DNA of 64,000 nt, taken from positions 4,588,001 to 4,652,000 of the forward strand of contig NZ_CP075583.1 in the NCBI RefSeq assembly GCF_023509035.1, written 5' to 3'. The position numbers and the translations under genes are program-made. This document shows positions 1 to 55,029 of the stretch, one piece after another. Within the stretch, counting starts at the first letter, position 1. Every line of letters starts with the position of its first letter. This DNA is from Janthinobacterium lividum. GTDB taxonomy: Bacteria; Pseudomonadota; Gammaproteobacteria; Burkholderiales; Burkholderiaceae_D. Below the pieces are notes generated by a model. It ran no database searches. It saw only the letters and a program-made list of their open reading frames with translations, and had not been told where the DNA came from.

Positions 1-932
1 CCACCCTGATTGACCAGCGCCTGCCCGTTGGCAGCATTCGCCGTGATGGCCAGCAAGCCATTCGTCGACACGATCGCCTTGCTGGTCGTCACATTGCCCG
101 TCAAGGCCGTCAAGCCGATGTTGACGGCACTGATCTGGCTGCCGGACACGTCGACCGATGCGCCCGTCAATTGCAGCTGGCCAGCCGCCATGTTCTGGCC
201 GCCAGCCTGCAAGACACCGCCCGTTTTCACCGTCAGATCGCCAGCCGAGGCAAAGCTGCCACCGGCGCGCATGCCTGCCGCCAGCAATCCATTACCGCTG
301 AGCTGTCCTGCCGTGATCGTCGTATTGCCCAGGGCAGCCAGCGAGCCTGTATTGCTCAGCAAGCCACCAATATCCAGGGTCTGGTCGCGCCCCGCATACA
401 GCACGCCAGCGTTGAGCACGTCGCCGACGACCTTGGCCGTGATATCCGTGCCCGCGCTGAGCGTGCCCTGCGCATTACGCAAACCGGCCGCATCCAGGCT
501 CAATGCGCCAGTGCCTGCCTGCAACAAGCCGCGCGTATTGTCGATGGCGCCGCCCAGGTGCAAATCGGTCGCCGCCGCGATCACGCCGTCGGTATTGACG
601 AGCGCGCCAGTGCTGACGATGTCGGCGGACGTTGCCGAGGTGATCTTGCCCTTGGTATTGTCCAGGCTGCCGGTCTGCACCGACAACACGCCATTGCCGG
701 CGATTTCACCACTCGTATTGTCGAGCTCGCCTGTGACGGCGACCGTCATGCCGCCCGCGCCCGTCTGCAGCAAATGGCCGCCCCGGTTGCTCAGGCTGTC
801 AGCCTGCACGCTCATGGACCGGCCCGTGGTGGTGGCGTTGGCATGCTCAAACAGACCGGCCTTGAGATCGACGGCGCCATTGCCGATGATGCTGCCGCCG
901 GCGCCCTGCAAGTTGGCCGCCGTGATGGCCAT
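1..932 (-). CDS. 3' continuation of the TpsA/CdiA-type exoprotein, out of frame with its 5' part and cut by the window edge
   Basis: The minus strand stays open from about 932 to base 3 in a different frame from the upstream part. I walked every codon in this stretch and found no stop. The translation carries on the same haemagglutinin-type repeats, for example NRGGHLLQTG, LDNTSGEIAGNG and, at the very edge, LLAITANA. It therefore belongs to the same gene as the reading frame that starts at 6091. The two parts are separated by what looks like 2 extra bases (or one missing) around 931-936. Aligning this site with the parallel repeats at about 2065, 3215 and 4385 shows the normal form GTLAI where this copy reads GTPWPS. 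The C-terminus, where a toxin domain or adhesin tip would lie, is outside the window, so its function cannot be called. Confidence 0.8.
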   Translation of the reverse strand, partial: MAITAANLQGAGGSIIGNGAVDLKAGLFEHANATTTGRSMSVQADSLSNRGGHLLQTGAGGMTVAVTGELDNTSGEIAGNGVLSVQTGSLDNTKGKITSATSADIVSTGALVNTDGVIAAATDLHLGGAIDNTRGLLQAGTGALSLDAAGLRNAQGTLSAGTDITAKVVGDVLNAGVLYAGRDQTLDIGGLLSNTGSLAALGNTTITAGQLSGNGLLAAGMRAGGSFASAGDLTVKTGGVLQAGGQNMAAGQLQLTGASVDVSGSQISAVNIGLTALTGNVTTSKAIVSTNGLLAITANAANGQALVNQG

Positions 933-3900
933 GGGGTGCCGCTGCCCGCATGTTCAATCTTGCCGCCCGCATTCGTCAAAGTGGCCGCGCCCAGAGTCAG
1001 GTGATTGCTATTGACGGCGATGCGCCCGGCGCTGTTGTCCAGCTTGCCCGTCTGGATGACGGTGTCGCCCGTGCCCGTCTGTATCAATGTGCCCTTGGTA
1101 TTGTCCAGGTTGCCCACATGCAGATCAAGTTGGCCGGCGCTGAGTTGCCCTTCCGTATTGCGCAAGATATCTTGCGCATGGATCGTCAAGGCACCGATCG
1201 TGCTGACCACGGCTTTCTGTGTGCTGATGTCGCCCTGTGCTGCCGTCAGGTCAATGCTGGTCGCACTGGTCTGGCTGCCGGAGAGGTCCACATTGGCACC
1301 GGTGAGATTGGCGCTGCCCGCTGCCAAGTTCTGCCCGTGCGCGGCCAGGGCTTGCGCGGTACTGATCGTCAAGTCGCCTACCGTGCCCAGCTTGCCATCG
1401 GCTTGCATGCCCGCGCCGATCAAGCTGCTTGCGCCGCTGTCGAGGCTGTTGGCTGTCAGGCTGGTGTTGCCCTGTGCCGCGATCACGCCTGTGTTCACGA
1501 TGGCGCCGCTGGCGTTCAGGGTTTGATTTCCGGCCGCGTACAGGCTGCCGGTATTATTCAGACTGGTCAGCGTGGCATTCAGGTTGGCGCCGGCAAACAC
1601 GCTGCCGGCAGTGTTGTTCAGCTTGCCAACCTTCAAGGTCGCCTCGCCAGCGACAGCCTGCAATTGCCCTTTGGTATTGTCGATGTCGCCACCGGTCAAT
1701 GCCAGATGACGGCCAGCCGCGACCGTGCCATCCGTGTTATCCAGGCTGCCGATATTCAACTCGGCATCCTGCGCCGCCACGATGCGGCCTGTATTGTTCA
1801 GCAAGGTAGCTGCTTTGACCAGCGCATCGCCATTGCCTTCGATCTTGCCGCCCGTATTGTCCAGCTGCCCGGTGGCAGTCACCAACATCACGCCCGCACC
1901 CGTCTGCGCCAGGCTGCCGGCGCGGTTGTCCAGGCTGCCGGCATTAATGGTCAGTTGCTTAGCGACTGTGATGGCATTGCGGTGGTCGAAGGCCGCCGCC
2001 GTGATGTCAAGTTTGCCGTTGCCCGTGATCTTGCCGAACTGGTTGTTGAACTGGCCCGCATTGATGGCGAGGATACCGGCACCGGCGTGCTCCAGCTTGC
2101 CGTTGATGTTGGTCAACAGCGTCGCGTTCAGGGCCAGGTTGGCGCTGTTGACGGCGATGCGGCCAGCCGTGTTGTCCAGCTTGCCCGTGGTGATGACGGT
2201 ATCGCCTGTGCCCGTCTGCACGATGTCGCCGCTGGCGTTGTCCAGATTCGCCACGCTCAGCTGCAACTGACCTGCCACCAGCTGGCCCTGGCTATTCACC
2301 AGCGACTGGGCGTTGTTTGCATTGGCCGTGATGGCCAGCACGTTGCTGGCGGAAATCACTGCCTTGTTCGTCAGCACATCACCGCTGCGCGCGGTAATGT
2401 CGATGTTTGCCGCAGCTGTCTGGCTGCCCGACAGATTCACGCTGGCGCCCGTCAGGACGGCACTGCCCGCCGCAAGGTTCTGTCCACTCGCTTGCAGCAC
2501 GCCATCGGCGTTGACGGTCAGATTACCTGCCGTACCCAGACTGCCATCAGCTTTCACACCGGCACCCAGCAAGCCGCTGCTGGTGACGTCGCCAGCGGAG
2601 ATCGTGGTGTGATTGGCGGCGGCGATGGAAGCCGTGTTGTTCAGCACACCGCCCACGGTCAACTGCTGGTCACGTCCCGCATACAGCAGGCCTGAGTTAT
2701 TCAGATCCCCGCCGACCTTGGCCGCCAGGTCCGTGCCCGCGCTCAGCGTGCCCTGCTGGTTCAGCAGGCTGGCCACATCCAGCGTCAAGGCGCCGGTGCC
2801 CGCTTGCAAGACACCACGCGTATTGTCCAGCGCGGCACCGCCGACCTGCAGGTCGGTGGTCGCCGCCAGCACGCCATCGGTATTATTCACAGCGCCCTTG
2901 CTGGCGACAGATGCCGCAGCCGCGGACGTGATGCGGCCCTTGCTGTTGTCGAGCACGCCGGCCCGCACCTGCACGCCGCCATTGCCGCCGATCTCGCCGC
3001 CGCTGTTATCGAGCTGCCCTGTCGTGGCTACCGTCATCGCCGCATTGCCCGTCTGCAGCACATGGCCGCCACGATTGCTCAGGCTATCGGCCTGCAGCGT
3101 CACTTGCTGCCCCACCGTGCTGGCCTGGTCATGCCGCATGACGCCCGCGTCGATGCGCACCAAGCCATTGCCGATGATGCTGCCGCGCTCGCCATCAAGC
3201 GTTGCCGCGTGGAGCGCCAGCGTGCCGTTGCCCGCATGTTCGAGCTTGCCATCCGTATTCATCAGCTTGCCGGCATCCAGGGTCGCATTCGCGCTGTTGA
3301 CGGCGATGCGGCCCCTGGTGTTGTCCAATATGCCTGCCGGCGTGCTCAACACGATGCGCGTATCGCCGGCGCCCGTCTGCACCACGGTGCCGCGGCGGTT
3401 GTCCAGGTTACTCAGTTGCAAGTCAAGCTGGCCCGCGCTCAGTTGCCCCAGTTCATTGACCAGGGTCTGGCCCGCATGTGCTCCCGCCGTCACCGCCAGG
3501 GTACCCGCCGTCGTCACCAGTGCCTGACGCGTCAGCACATCGCCCTGTGTCGCCGTCAATGCGATGTTCGCCGCGCCCGTCTGGCTACCTGTCAGGTCCA
3601 GCGCCGCGCCGTTCAGGGCCAGCTGGCCCGCCGCCAGGTTTTGTCCTTTGGTCAGCAGTCCCTGTGCCGTCGTTACGCGCAAATCGCCCGTCGCCAGCAA
3701 GCCGCCATCGGCCTTCACGCCCGCGCCCAGCAGGCTCGATGCCGAACTGTCCAGGCTAGCCGCCTGGATGGTCGTATGGCCCTGCGCCGCGATCACGCCC
3801 GTGTTCACAATGGCGCCCGTCGCCTTGAGCGTTTGATGCGCGCCTGCGTACACGCTGCCGCTGTTGTCGACCTTGTCGGCCGCAATCGCCAGGTCGCCCG

Positions 3901-6091
3901 CCGCAAACACGCTGCCGGCCGTATTCTGCAAATTGCCGATAGCCAGGCTGGCCGCACCGGATACCGCCTGGATCTGGCCGCGCACGTTGTTCACGTCGCC
4001 AGCATTCAAGGTCAAGGAAAGGCCAGCAGCCAACACACCGCTCGTGTTGTTCAGGCCCCCGGCCACGTTCATGTTGACGGCCTGCGCTGCGGCAATGCGG
4101 CCATGCTCGCTCAGCACACTGGCCGCCGACAGGTCAAGGCTGCCGTTGGTTTCCAGCCTGCCGCCGCTATTATCCAGACCCCGAGCAACATGCACCGTTG
4201 TTTGCTCGGTTCCCGTTTGAATGAGGCTGCCACCGCGGTTATCCAGCGTACCAGCTTGCACAGTCAGATGCCTGGCCAGCGTTGTCGCCTCGCGGTGGTC
4301 CACTGCGTCAGCCGCCAGCGCAAGGCCGCCATTGCCGGTTATCTGTCCGCGCTGGTTTGCCAGCGAGGCGGCATGGATAGCGAGGGTACCCGTGCCCGCA
4401 TGTTCGATCTTGCCGTCTGTATTGACCAGCGCCGCCACATCCACAGTCAGGTTGTGGCTATTGGTGGCAATCCGTCCAGCACTATTATCGAGTTGACCAG
4501 GCAGACGAAGCGCAAGGTCGCCTTCGCCAAGTTGCAAAATCTGGCCGCCCACATTCGATATGTCATGCGCAGCAATACTTACCTCTCTGCCCGTTGCCTG
4601 CGCGCCATCGGTACGCAATAAACGTGTGGTCTGCAGCGCCAGCGTGTCGCGCGCGGCCAGCGCGGCGTGGCGGGCATCCAGGTCTCCCTGGCTTGCCATG
4701 GCAGAAAGCTGCCTGGCGGACAGGTTAGCCCCGGCGAGATCGACTGCGGTTCCCGCAATCCGCACCGTATCGCCTGCGGCGCCGATACCATGGATACCTG
4801 CACCAGCATTTGCCTCGACGGTCAAATCGCCCGTTGCACGAAGCATATTGTCAGCATTCAGGCCAGCAGCCAGGACCGCACCGGCGGCTGAATCAACACG
4901 GCCGCCCCCATACAGCACAGTATTGCCAGCAGCAGCGATTAAGCCGCTGTTGCTGATATCGCCGCCGCTTGAAATGCCGGTATCGCCTGCAGCATAAATC
5001 GTGCCGGCATTTTGCAGATTCCCCGCTGCGCGGGCCTGTACCTGGCCGCCTTCAGCACCAGACTGAATATATCCACTGTTGCTGATCCAACCATCCGAAT
5101 GCAGCACCACATTACCCACCGATGCGGCCACGGTTCCGGCGTTACGCGTCCCGATACCAGCCTCGGTGCCTATCAGTGTAATTTTTCCAGCATACATGCC
5201 GCCCAACTGGGCGACATCCAGTGCAAACGCAGGCGTCGCGCCATCGCCGGATGCTGCAGCCTCGACCGCATGATTTGCATCCATCCGGTTCGCGCCCGTG
5301 ACGACCCGCAGATCGTTGGCCCATATGCCAGCATTCACTTGCACCGCCCGCGCCAGAATGGCCGTGTAATCGCTTTGTGACGTGTCCAGCCCCCTGCCGC
5401 TGACGGTGACCACGCCCCGCTGCACCACATAGCCGTCAAGATTGCCGCCATTGACGATGGGAGAACCAGTCGTCAACGTCACGCGGCTGGCGTTAATAAA
5501 GCCGCCGCCATCCACCGCTACCCCGGAAGGATTGGCGATGATGACCTCTGCGCGTTGCCCTGCCACCTCGACATAACCACGCAACTGGCTCGGATTGGCA
5601 GAGTTGACTTCGTTCAGGATGACGCGCGCGCTGCCACCGGCAAGCCATGGATTACCTTGTATCCAGCCACCGGTCTGGGTTTGCGTATTGCCACGGCTGT
5701 TATTCAGGATGACGCCATTGCTCTGCACGTCGAACTGGCTATACGTATTGCGCGACACGCCTGCCCCGCTGGGCGTCTGGATATTCACTTGCGGCATGCC
5801 ATTTGCTGTCTGCAGCACGGTCGGACGCTGGCCTCCCGGGGCATTGCGATCCGCCACGACCTGACCATGCGCCGCACCGGTCACAAAAAGCAGCATACCC
5901 AATGCACTGAACACCGCAAGGCAGGCCGGCCGCAACGTCGCCAGCGTCAATTCCGCGCCACCTCCTCCTGCACCGTCGTTCATGACACTTTCGCCGCCAG
6001 GAGCTTTGCCTTGCGACGTGGCATTCTCGCCCACCACCATCAATTGGCCACGGCGTTGATTGAATATGATGCGGTACAGGTGCTTATTCAT
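812..6091 (-). CDS. Filamentous haemagglutinin / CdiA-type two-partner secretion exoprotein (TpsA), 5' part
   Basis: Giant secreted protein exported through the neighbouring TpsB pore. The start chosen is the ATG at 6091, because the extended signal-peptide region of this family begins there (MNKHLYRIIFNQRRGQLMVV). An in-frame ATG 10 codons upstream is less likely. A hydrophobic signal segment ends near AAHGQVVAD. A TPS secretion domain follows with the family pattern NPSGVAVDGGGFIN at about residue 190. The rest is degenerate beta-helix repeats (LDNxxGxIxxxG, NTDGxLAA, NTGVIAAQG) arranged in super-modules of about 1.15 kb: equivalent sites lie near 4460, 3295, 2149 and 1008. The true frame is lost after about residue 1719 (near base 934), and the last 40 residues of this ORF to its stop at 812 are spurious. 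The family includes adhesins and contact-dependent inhibition effectors; which one this is depends on the missing C-terminus. Confidence 0.88.
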   Translation of the reverse strand: MNKHLYRIIFNQRRGQLMVVGENATSQGKAPGGESVMNDGAGGGGAELTLATLRPACLAVFSALGMLLFVTGAAHGQVVADRNAPGGQRPTVLQTANGMPQVNIQTPSGAGVSRNTYSQFDVQSNGVILNNSRGNTQTQTGGWIQGNPWLAGGSARVILNEVNSANPSQLRGYVEVAGQRAEVIIANPSGVAVDGGGFINASRVTLTTGSPIVNGGNLDGYVVQRGVVTVSGRGLDTSQSDYTAILARAVQVNAGIWANDLRVVTGANRMDANHAVEAAASGDGATPAFALDVAQLGGMYAGKITLIGTEAGIGTRNAGTVAASVGNVVLHSDGWISNSGYIQSGAEGGQVQARAAGNLQNAGTIYAAGDTGISSGGDISNSGLIAAAGNTVLYGGGRVDSAAGAVLAAGLNADNMLRATGDLTVEANAGAGIHGIGAAGDTVRIAGTAVDLAGANLSARQLSAMASQGDLDARHAALAARDTLALQTTRLLRTDGAQATGREVSIAAHDISNVGGQILQLGEGDLALRLPGQLDNSAGRIATNSHNLTVDVAALVNTDGKIEHAGTGTLAIHAASLANQRGQITGNGGLALAADAVDHREATTLARHLTVQAGTLDNRGGSLIQTGTEQTTVHVARGLDNSGGRLETNGSLDLSAASVLSEHGRIAAAQAVNMNVAGGLNNTSGVLAAGLSLTLNAGDVNNVRGQIQAVSGAASLAIGNLQNTAGSVFAAGDLAIAADKVDNSGSVYAGAHQTLKATGAIVNTGVIAAQGHTTIQAASLDSSASSLLGAGVKADGGLLATGDLRVTTAQGLLTKGQNLAAGQLALNGAALDLTGSQTGAANIALTATQGDVLTRQALVTTAGTLAVTAGAHAGQTLVNELGQLSAGQLDLQLSNLDNRRGTVVQTGAGDTRIVLSTPAGILDNTRGRIAVNSANATLDAGKLMNTDGKLEHAGNGTLALHAATLDGERGSIIGNGLVRIDAGVMRHDQASTVGQQVTLQADSLSNRGGHVLQTGNAAMTVATTGQLDNSGGEIGGNGGVQVRAGVLDNSKGRITSAAAASVASKGAVNNTDGVLAATTDLQVGGAALDNTRGVLQAGTGALTLDVASLLNQQGTLSAGTDLAAKVGGDLNNSGLLYAGRDQQLTVGGVLNNTASIAAANHTTISAGDVTSSGLLGAGVKADGSLGTAGNLTVNADGVLQASGQNLAAGSAVLTGASVNLSGSQTAAANIDITARSGDVLTNKAVISASNVLAITANANNAQSLVNSQGQLVAGQLQLSVANLDNASGDIVQTGTGDTVITTGKLDNTAGRIAVNSANLALNATLLTNINGKLEHAGAGILAINAGQFNNQFGKITGNGKLDITAAAFDHRNAITVAKQLTINAGSLDNRAGSLAQTGAGVMLVTATGQLDNTGGKIEGNGDALVKAATLLNNTGRIVAAQDAELNIGSLDNTDGTVAAGRHLALTGGDIDNTKGQLQAVAGEATLKVGKLNNTAGSVFAGANLNATLTSLNNTGSLYAAGNQTLNASGAIVNTGVIAAQGNTSLTANSLDSGASSLIGAGMQADGKLGTVGDLTISTAQALAAHGQNLAAGSANLTGANVDLSGSQTSATSIDLTAAQGDISTQKAVVSTIGALTIHAQDILRNTEGQLSAGQLDLHVGNLDNTKGTLIQTGTGDTVIQTGKLDNSAGRIAVNSNHLTLGAATLTNAGGKIEHAGSGTPWPSRRPTCRAPAAASSAMAPSISRPVCLSMPTPPPRAGP

Positions 6092-10356: not shown

Positions 10357-10423
10357 GATGGGGACTTTATCTGAGGTCATTACAAAACCGGCGCACTAGG
10401 CGCCGGTCTGGTCTGTCGCTATA

Positions 10424-10527
10424 GCGCAGCGGAAAAAATTGTTCAGGGCAAGGCGCAGTGCCGAAGACAGTACGAATAGTACGGCGAGGCACTGTAACGC
10501 AGCCATGGGCAATTTTTCCTGTTGCGC
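10424..10527. repeat. Dispersed palindromic intergenic element, copy 1 (guaB-guaA)
   Basis: About 104 bp sharing the core GTTCAGGGCAAGGCGCA...GCCGAAGAC...GTACGGCGAGG with two other sites in the window (36005-36108 and 44428-44525). The inner stem is CAGTGCC (10456-10462) with GGCACTG (10488-10494). The outer stem is ggaaaaaattg with caatttttcc, flanked by gcgca/tgcgc. It ends one base before the guaB stop codon, so it would form the 3' end of the guaB message. Confidence 0.75.
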
Positions 10528-12450
<1,923 letters not shown>

Positions 12451-36004: not shown

Positions 36005-36108
36005 CGGGAGTGCCGAAAACCGTTCAGGGCAAGGCGCAGCGCCGAAGACCGTACTGAATGTACGGCGAGGTGCTGCAACGCAGCCATTGATGGCTTCTCG
36101 GCGCTCCG
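36005..36108. repeat. Dispersed palindromic intergenic element, copy 2 (pyrH-frr)
   Basis: Shares GTTCAGGGCAAGGCGCA and the GCCGAAGAC...GTACGGCGAGG core with copies 1 and 3. The inner stem is CAGCGCC with GGTGCTG, one position a G-T pair. The outer stem is cgggagtgccga with tcggcgctccg, different bases from the other copies but still paired. It ends six bases from the pyrH stop codon. Confidence 0.75.
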
Positions 36109-36114
36109 TTTCCC

Positions 36115-36831
36115 TTATACGTGAACCAGGGTGCCTTCGTCGTCGCCCATGATCACGCGCATGAGGGCGCCTGGTTTCGTGATCGAAAACACCTTGATCG
36201 GCAGTTTCTGGTCGCGGCACAGGGCGAATGCGGTGGCGTCCATCACTTGCAGGTGCTTGGCGATGGCGTCGTCGAACGTAATCGTGTGGAACAGGGTGGC
36301 GTTCGGATCCTTCTTCGGATCGGCCGTATAGACGCCGTCGACCTTGGTGGCCTTCAGGACGATCTCGGCGCTGATCTCGGAACCGCGCAGGGCGGCCGCC
36401 GTGTCAGTGGTGAAGAACGGATTACCGGTGCCGGCGGCGAAGACGACCACTTTACCTTCTTCCAGGTATTGCAGGGCTTTCGGGCGGACGTACGGCTCGA
36501 CCACTTGTTCGATGCCGATGGCCGACATGACGCGCGCGGTAATGCCGACGTGGCGCATGGCATCGGCCAGCGCCAGTGCATTCATCACCGTGGCAAGCAT
36601 GCCCATGTAATCGGCGGTGGCACGGTCCATGCCTTGCGCGCCGGGCGCGACGCCGCGGAAGATATTGCCGCCGCCAATCACGATTGCCAGTTCCACACCC
36701 AACTTCGCCACCTCGGCCACATCGGCCACCATGCGCTCGATCGTGGCGCGGTTGATGCCGTAGGGATCATCCCCCATCAGGGCTTCGCCGGACAACTTGA
36801 GGAGGACGCGCTTGTAGGCTGGTTTTGACAT
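36115..36831 (-). CDS. pyrH: UMP kinase
   Basis: 238 aa from the ATG at 36831 ([20 protein letters not shown]), preceded by GGAG at nine bases; the open frame extends to 36951 but crosses the tsf terminator. Phosphorylates UMP to UDP. Amino acid kinase fold with [14 protein letters not shown], the substrate region [20 protein letters not shown], and [16 protein letters not shown]. Lies in the usual place between tsf and frr. Confidence 0.96.
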
Positions 36832-36949
36832 GAGCTGGGGCTCCATAAATGAGGTTATTCGAGTATGACATGGCGCAGCGCCTTGCAGCGCCGGATAGGC
36901 GCGCGGGGCTGCCCATGCCGCCGCCCGGCACGACAGGTGCGGGCGGGCC

Positions 36950-44343: not shown

Positions 44344-44368
44344 GTTCGCCTGGTTTGCTTCAGACATA

Positions 44369-44406
44369 AAAAATGGCCGCCCAGCTCATGCTGCGCGGCC
44401 ATTTTT
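44369..44406. terminator. Bidirectional terminator between the PilZ gene and def
   Basis: Stem AAAAATGGCCGC (44369-44380) with GCGGCCATTTTT (44395-44406), with A and T runs on both sides, serving both convergent genes. Confidence 0.85.
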
Positions 44407-44427
44407 GTTTGACAGTAACAACCACGA

Positions 44428-44525
44428 GGCGCCTGAAAAACGTTCAGGGCAAGGCGCATTGCCGAAGACAGTACGAATAGTACGGCGAGGCAATGCAACG
44501 CAGGCATGGGCGTTTCTCAGCCGCC
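44428..44525. repeat. Dispersed palindromic intergenic element, copy 3 (after def)
   Basis: Same core as copies 1 and 2. The inner stem is CATTGCC with GGCAATG, both sides changed together relative to copy 1 (CAGTGCC/GGCACTG). The outer stem is ggcgcctgaaaaacg with cgtttctcagccgcc. It ends two bases before the def stop codon. Confidence 0.75.
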
Positions 44526-44527
44526 GA

Positions 44528-45064
44528 TCAGTCGTCGTCGTTCGGATCCAAATCGGGGAACATAACTTCCGTATAGCCAAACTGCGTAAAATCGACGATA
44601 CGCATCGGATACAAAATGCCGTGCAAATGGTCGACTTCATGCTGTACCACCCTGGCATGGAAACCATCGCAATCGCGGCTGATGGGCTGACCGAACTGAT
44701 CCACGCCTTCGTAGTGCAGCTCGCTCCAGCGCGGCACGCTGCCGCGCAGGCCAGGCACGGACAGGCAACCCTCGAAACCCTCTTCCTTGCGTTCCGACAA
44801 AGGCGTCAGCACAGGATTGATCAGCACGGTTTCCGGCACTTGCGGCGCGTCGGGATAGCGCAGATTCTGTTTGAAGCCGTAGATCACCAGTTGCAGGTTG
44901 ACGCCGATCTGCGGCGCCGCCAGGCCAGCGCCATTGGCCGCGTGCATGGTGTCGAACATGTCGGCGATCAAGGCGTGCAATTCGGGCGTATCGAATTCAC
45001 GCACGGGTTCGGCCATGCGCAGCAGGCGCGGATCGCCCATCTTGAGGATTTCACGTACCGTCAT
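44528..45064 (-). CDS. def: Peptide deformylase
   Basis: 178 aa from the ATG at 45064 ([16 protein letters not shown]); the frame is open into galU but this start overlaps the galU stop as ATGA, indicating coupling. Removes the formyl group from nascent proteins. The three family motifs are intact: [21 protein letters not shown] with the metal-binding Cys, and QHEVDHLHG with two His ligands and the catalytic Glu. Probably a second deformylase in the genome, since it is not beside fmt. Confidence 0.95.
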
Positions 45065-54733: not shown

Positions 54734-54743
54734 CCTCCCACTT

Positions 54744-54951
54744 GATCGGGAGAGGGCAACCCCGCGTTGCCGCCGAAGGGGCACTACCCAAAAACTCTCA
54801 GGCAAAAGGACCGATCAGGCGGACTGAAGCTGTTGCTTTGGCGACATCTTTAGCTCAACTCTGGAGAGCGGCCGCGGCTTTACGCCGGCGGCCCACCGAA
54901 GGGGCGCACGGGGCAAGCTCCCGTAATCTCTCAGGTACAAAGGACAGGGGG
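54744..54951 (+). ncRNA. Tandem glycine riboswitch
   Basis: Two glycine aptamers in series upstream of gcvT. Aptamer 1 (54744-54816) is closed by GATCGG/CCGATC and has GGGAGAG, GCCGAAGGGGCA and CTCTCAGGCAAAAGGACCGA. Aptamer 2 (about 54859-54951) has CTGGAGAGC, CACCGAAGGGGC and ATCTCTCAGGTACAAAGGAC. Between them lies a roughly 40-base linker. Glycine binding normally switches the downstream gcv genes on, so that glycine cleavage is made when glycine is plentiful. The expression platform must lie between 54952 and the gcvT start at 55030. Confidence 0.93.
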
Positions 54952-55029
54952 TCAGTGATCACGCCGGAATGCCGTGTTTGGCTCCGTGTGTTCTGTTAAC
55001 TTCCCCTTTACCTTCGTCCCGAGGATTCA

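Follow-up and report, generated by a model that had tools for sequence, protein, structure and literature searches.

A palindromic repeat of about 100 bases, present in three copies in a stretch of the Janthinobacterium lividum chromosome, is a non-coding repeat of the Correia superfamily, MITE-type. Judged from sequence, its core is homologous to that of the Neisseria Correia element; related genomes have sites that are empty of it, it sits flush behind genes in one orientation, and its pairing is kept on the strand opposite the gene. We put the probability at roughly 40% that it is a mobile hairpin of Correia type, domesticated at 3′ gene borders and acting through the antisense strand.

The window, that is, the whole stretch of DNA analyzed, comprises 64,000 nucleotides (G000:C1:4588001-4652000) of a genome of 6,262,330 bases assembled as a single contig. 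Its features are listed in Table 1. As the initial annotation had claimed, the three copies share GTTCAGGGCAAGGCGCA and a GTAC..GTAC loop, have the inner stems CAGTGCC/GGCACTG, CAGCGCC/GGTGCTG, and CATTGCC/GGCAATG, and start no more than 10 bases from the stop codons of minus-strand genes. The window also carries tandem glycine riboswitch aptamers on the plus strand (positions 54737-54957; RF00504 twice) and, at positions ~100-5450, long repeats with a period of ~1.14 kb (113-nt units and others), probably one large repetitive gene.

Table 1. Element copies, adjoining genes, and terminator-like hairpins in the window
Feature	Position in window	Strand	Remarks
Element copy 1	10424..10527	+	Arm end flush with (0 bases from) the guaB stop codon; + is the constrained strand (F)
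guaB (IMP dehydrogenase)	10528..11952	-	Stop codon 10528-10530; start predicted; NCBIfam
Element copy 2	36005..36108	+	6 nt past the pyrH stop codon; kept in place in relatives having a copy
pyrH (UMP kinase)	36115..36846	-	Stop codon 36115-36117; start predicted; NCBIfam
Element copy 3	44428..44525	+	2 nt past the def stop codon
def (peptide deformylase)	44528..45064	-	Stop codon 44528-44530; start predicted; NCBIfam
Terminator-like hairpin, canonical	10383..10407	-	Past copy 1; same hairpin in empty-site relatives
Two-way terminator-like hairpin	44368..44407	.	Past copy 3; similar in L203-L205 (with element) and in L208, L213, and L214 (no element)

A 70-base core was searched in its own genome with blastn, which gave 23 matches; 21 of these were aligned and used to build a covariance model (R1). 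The covariance-model search, which had been proposed with the initial annotation, recovered 27 full-length copies in this genome (own copies), 22 of them also found by blastn, and matched relatives and the wider order as well; one partial copy (L051) and one weak antisense match were found besides and left out of the 27-copy set. Scans with stricter filters and limited candidates per genome gave R1 matches in at least 25 of 41 genomes of relatives and in at least 110 of the 300 genomes sampled from the order (at least 65 of 135 genera), the own genome being included in both. The relatives' set (n = 60) consists of 60 of the first 62 matches listed outside the own genome (G004:C1:2923111 and G006:C133:1443 were left out), and these copies are partly orthologous. 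A further set of named records, taken from among the matches listed, is largely Janthinobacterium and overlaps other genomes surveyed; because the named records overlap the relatives' genomes, the copy sets are not independent. The guaB orthologues L065, L129, and L168, all from Janthinobacterium records, are near-identical or close in sequence. Tandem runs were seen in two places (L316, four copies at ~115-bp spacing; L125, four copies at 81 bp), and the own genome has a tandem pair (L037/L051).

The element forms a single long imperfect hairpin of ~100 bases, with ~20-nt outer arms, a conserved middle stem, an asymmetric internal loop, a variable inner stem, and a GTAC..GTAC tip. On both strands, the three window copies give more stable folds than their shuffled versions (z, -3.2 to -6.3), with at most 1 of 200 shuffles folding as well. 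Over 34 pairs in 21 own copies, 83.2% of cells were paired versus 74.5% in shuffles, and 25 of the 34 pairs had changed on both sides versus 13.2 in shuffles; none of 500 shuffles reached the observed value in either test, although kinship among the copies means that both overstate significance. When the partner was shifted by 1 to 3 columns, pairing fell to 35 to 40%. Covariation spans both arms and the inner stem and supports the earlier claim that structure is selected; pyrH adds one clear case in which the element is conserved in place. The outer stems, said to differ completely, do not: most copies are loose variations on GCGCCTGAAAAA / TTTTTCAGGCGC.

Conservation in place is clearest at pyrH, where the six filled sites are on average 91% identical in the element and 92% in the coding end, versus 58% in the flank beyond (50 bases, from ~10 past the element). 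One pyrH orthologue (L239) has a full compensatory change from GCC/GGC to GTC/GAC. Elsewhere, the contrast between element and flank is smaller (guaB, 92 and 86%; def, 93 and 82%; L267 site, 93 and 84%); the guaB and def flanks hold the terminator or lie near it. Pairing could also be kept by mutation alone, with template switching in the quasi-palindrome copying one arm onto the other, and this would suit the concerted multi-base arm differences at one orthologous site (CTGG/CCAG versus AAAG/CTTT) and the internal deletions of the element in several relatives. Such copying predicts neither the wobble strand bias described below, nor the flush position, nor the conservation of the element over its flank at pyrH, and we consider it very unlikely.

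Placement was scored after all copies had been turned to have the CCATGG side in front. The leading end of 23 of the 27 own copies has an in-frame stop codon (14 TAA, 7 TGA, and 2 TAG) at -15 to +10 nt, counting open reading frames of ≥100 codons and, failing that, of ≥60 codons. A random intergenic position and orientation falls ≤10 nt past a stop codon of the correct sense in 2.7% of cases (from the 23 gaps in the window), which scales to ~6.4%, and at most ~7%, for the 26-nt span. When only the longest open reading frame of ≥100 codons was used, the count was 19 of 27, versus 2 of 27 at the other side. Relatives' copies gave 53 of 60 versus 3 of 60, and the order set, in which each of 28 other genomes is represented by its best copy, gave 17 versus 2, with L415 (contig edge) dropped. 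Pairing begins at the very first base past the stop codon in 20 of the 35 copies with a nearby stop, and right junctions vary among copies.

For the named records, exact-core matches were used (106 copies, after those with <500 nt of flank were dropped), and stop codons were counted 20 to 40 nt from the core. Copies without the GGACTTACGC terminal repeat gave 47 of 74 versus 9 of 74 at the other side, and those with it gave 3 of 32 versus 3 of 32; the split is a rough one, made by regular expression, and the class without the repeat still contains a few copies of Neisseria, Cardiobacterium, and Pasteurellaceae type. Within that class, the count is 27 of 39 versus 1 for Janthinobacterium and 20 of 35 versus 8, a weaker effect, for other taxa, and in the 40- to 60-nt bin the other side leads slightly (7 versus 3 and 5 versus 3). 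The 3′-end placement in fixed orientation noticed in the window is supported beyond it, in the own, relatives', order, and named-record sets. Undibacterium and others (L053, L056, L057, and L060, among others) have the same core inside TAGGACTTACGCAAAA-like terminal repeats and no stop-codon rule.

Four own copies depart from the rule. L031 lies ~10 nt after a tRNA-Thr(GGT) gene, and three copies from other Janthinobacterium records (L077, L079, and L104) are found close behind the same tRNA-Thr(GGT); L030 has its stop codon 28 nt away, and L027 and L041 are of a longer-arm subclass. This subclass (GGCGGGCCRGAGNCGCG...; L027, L041, L291, L301, L303, L315, and L318) has no flush stop codon, and L041 is placed between divergent genes that were read by eye as folD and aceE.

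That the element is movable, as had been suggested, is supported by filled and empty versions of the guaB and L034 sites and by patchy presence at def and pyrH. The empty guaB site in relatives (e.g., L181 and L183) reads GCTATTTACT, and the filled site has ~104 extra bases immediately past the stop codon; filled and empty sites among relatives give the same picture at the L034 gene. No clear target duplication (TA) was seen at guaB or L034 when filled and empty sites were compared. At def and pyrH, only some relatives have the element, and the rest often have other palindromes in its place. Presence being patchy, no single copy is essential. At the L267 site, the stop codon is part of the arm, and the last coding bases are paired with the far arm (CTGGAAG/CTTCCAG; AAAGAAG/CTTCTTT); G000 and G005 have only a core-deleted remnant at this site.

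A core-deleted remnant in the own genome (L332, ~5134156) consists of arms alone behind a stop codon. In relatives whose pyrH-frr gap is without the studied element (L237, L238, and L240-L245), the gap holds a second palindrome, ~130 nt long, whose ends resemble CGCCTGACAAAACC / GGTTTTGTCAGGCG and whose tip is GTAC..GTAC; L236 has both, adjoining. Palindromes of the form GGGGTCAGACCC / GGGGTCTGACCC occur shortly behind stop codons at the def site (L210 and L211, with a variant in L208) and at L330, in relatives without the element there, as if several repeat families used the same spots.

A plain selfish MITE, found wherever insertion is harmless between stop codon and terminator, would account for the patchy presence and for the short gap between stop codon and terminator in empty sites (guaB, ~17 nt; L034, 5 to 9 nt). 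However, a hairpin that is nearly symmetric ought to be tolerated both ways, yet the orientation is fixed; copies are near-flush even where the gap is longer (def), and the element is conserved in place at pyrH. This explanation appears highly improbable to us.

The constrained strand was identified from wobble pairs. Using symmetric scores, we aligned one arm of each copy with the reverse-complemented partner arm and counted a mismatch only where it had Watson-Crick pairs on both sides; copies without a recognizable loop were dropped (26 of 27 own copies were used, and 123 copies in the named-record test). Read in the upstream gene's sense, A:C versus G:U mismatches numbered 38:8 in own copies and 106:6 in relatives' copies, the latter ratio being inflated by orthologues and by the choice of copies that score highest under a model of that strand. 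The ratio was 78:12 in Janthinobacterium records, 36:16 (weaker) in other taxa, 42:9 in the terminal-repeat class (40:9 outside Janthinobacterium), and 29:8 in the order set. An A:C excess in the gene's sense amounts to wobble pairs on the opposite strand (F, the window plus strand), and a role as 3′-UTR RNA of the gene, as the initial annotation had envisaged, is therefore disfavored. Some def orthologues have G:U on the gene's sense strand (by eye).

Two causes of this bias were tried and rejected. C-to-T mutation was dismissed since unpaired sites have no C>T excess on the F strand (10 C>T and 33 G>A in own copies, from 30 rows in which two copies were counted twice and one is partial; 66 and 76 in relatives). 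A function as the 3′ border of a convergent neighbor was dismissed since the bias is also present in tandem pairs (19:6 and 70:3) besides convergent ones (17:1 and 35:3). RNA folding energy is better on the antisense strand in 22 of 27 own copies, 56 of 60 relatives' copies, and 21 of 28 copies of the order set. DNA parameters also favor that strand (25 of 27 own and 59 of 60 relatives' copies), and single-stranded DNA would yield the same wobble pattern as RNA.

The copies had also been proposed to be terminators. A canonical terminator-like hairpin lies further downstream at guaB in filled (L172 and L175) and empty (L180, L181, L183, and L185) sites, at the L034 site in filled (L034 and L354), core-deleted (L353), and empty (L356, L357, and L358) sites, and at def in filled (L202-L205) and element-free (L208, L213, and L214) sites, being absent from L210 and L211. 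With such a hairpin present downstream at three sites whether the element is there or not, the element is not simply the terminator. A T-run adjoins the hairpin in most Janthinobacterium copies; that of the constrained strand is short (TTTTC) and is missing in several other genera. The proposal is weakened by the hairpins at guaB, def, and L034 and by the copies in other genera that lack the T-run; at the other sites the element may have a terminating role, as a strict finder placed such a hairpin within 120 nt downstream of no more than 5 of 27 own copies and 20 of 60 copies of relatives. A role as an ordinary intrinsic terminator, or as an mRNA 3′-UTR stabilizer of the upstream gene, would fit the location, which read in the gene's sense is behind its stop codon, the T-run, the strong fold on both strands, and the 22 of 27 own copies that have no strict hairpin in the 120 nt downstream. 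It is nonetheless improbable, given wobble pairs on the other strand, the missing T-runs, and the three sites where a canonical hairpin lies downstream whether or not the element is present.

The preferred reading is that of a domesticated mobile hairpin acting through the antisense strand. Fixed terminal repeats do not define the element in the Burkholderiales branch. It inserts, or survives, flush behind a gene's last base with a fixed side toward the gene, mostly at the stop codon and, in some genomes, at the end of tRNA-Thr. Its working form would be the antisense strand, as RNA or as single-stranded DNA. In the simplest form of this mechanism, RNA coming from downstream would be stopped, trapped, or cut at the hairpin before antisense entry to the gene; we infer antisense RNA across the copies, and cutting by RNase III is suggested by analogy with the Correia stem-loop.

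Integron attC sites are variable in sequence and conserved in fold, lie flush behind stop codons, and have their folded strand opposite the gene. The studied element is similar in fold, flush position, and strand and differs in having scattered copies behind housekeeping genes. The main rival to the preferred reading builds on this likeness: flush, oriented placement would be targeting by the moving machinery, and the mobile form would be a folded single strand recognized by shape like attC. It is supported by arms that vary yet pair, by the fixed strand and the flush junction, by the lack of a clear target duplication at guaB and L034, and by relatives with fixed terminal repeats, in which the strand bias is also present (42:9) and the stop-codon rule does not apply (3 of 32 versus 3 of 32). 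Against this, no enzyme was found, own copies are roughly even in orientation versus replication (hand count; origin assumed near coordinate 0), and conservation in place at pyrH is unexpected for a mere substrate. The integron integrase TIGR02249 was above cut-off in 0 of 16 same-genus genomes (and in 2 of 25 genomes searched, both from other families), and it was rejected as the mover on that ground. The Y1 transposase family (PF01797) is present in all 16 same-genus genomes searched (the own genome and the element-free G001 and G014 being among these) and is uninformative about the mover; no tie to it was found, and the RAYT link raised by the initial annotation is not supported. Targeting by shape is thus possible but, in our judgment, unlikely.

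The gene between own copies L028 and L041, which are 1 kb apart, was considered as an enzyme gene and rejected (folD by eye, with aceE beyond). Unlikely, in our view, is a mobile hairpin family that would recognize gene 3′ ends and move or act as a folded antisense single strand, with variable arms recognized by shape; it would be an integrase-free, chromosomal, attC-like counterpart of Correia descent across Burkholderiales.

No mobile element is known to us that combines stop-codon placement, one orientation, and an opposite-strand fold. The present analysis joins the Correia element, described as Neisseria-only in the relevant passages of PMC2649163, to a family matching at least 110 of 300 genomes of the order, one branch of which is governed by a sharp rule, with copies at the stop codon, a single orientation, and the fold preserved on the opposite strand. 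How a small element finds, or is kept at, gene 3′ ends thereby becomes testable, as does the question whether dedicated hairpins manage antisense RNA at gene borders.

Rfam gave no family for the element at gathering score; when the threshold was relaxed, it gave just two microRNA matches, both scoring far short of gathering. A search of the open-license literature for the exact core sequence and for Janthinobacterium repeats returned nothing on the element; the letters of the Correia repeat were located in print. The initial annotation recognized no named family in the copies; a named relative exists, the Correia element (CREE/NEMIS). REPs are 20 to 40 bp long with a GTAG or CGTC tag (PMC3733652); the element resembles REP/REPIN sequences as an intergenic palindrome in many copies and differs in being a 100-bp hairpin. 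The BRE of Hot et al. (2011) is ~90 bp long, dispersed in Betaproteobacteria, and intergenic, with some copies overlapping the ends of open reading frames and some in tandem runs (sections of PMC3110155). Table 2 of that paper names no Janthinobacterium, and its section on BRE gives no stop-codon rule (PMC3110155). The element shares size, dispersal, intergenic position, occasional overlap with open reading frame ends, and tandem runs (compare L316 and L125) with BRE as described in those sections. It may belong to one family with the BRE known from Bordetella and further Betaproteobacteria.

The closest named relative is the Correia element, which has a short form of ~100 bp and is dispersed, mostly intergenic, and mobile (as described in parts of PMC2649163 and PMC5039591). 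According to passages of PMC2649163, clear insertions are often at a TA and the stem-loop is an RNase III target. One R1 match (L416, in a 1.8-Mb genome) is a Correia element (E, 2.1e-14); of its two ends, the right one is identical to tatagtggattaaatttaaatcaggacaa, a published 26-bp variant, and the left one is a single base off tatagtggattaaatttaaaccggtacgg. The likeness extends to a homologous core between inverted repeats, the hairpin layout, the size of ~100 bp, dispersal, and mobility. The own copies differ in having no fixed TATAGTGGATTAA terminal repeats, no clear TA duplication at guaB or L034, and a place behind stop codons; the 26-bp Correia inverted repeats (tatagtggattaa...) do not occur in them, the arms being variable and loosely GCGCCTGAAAAA. 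The match to L416 and the differing terminal repeats together make the element a relative of Correia rather than a member by terminal repeats.
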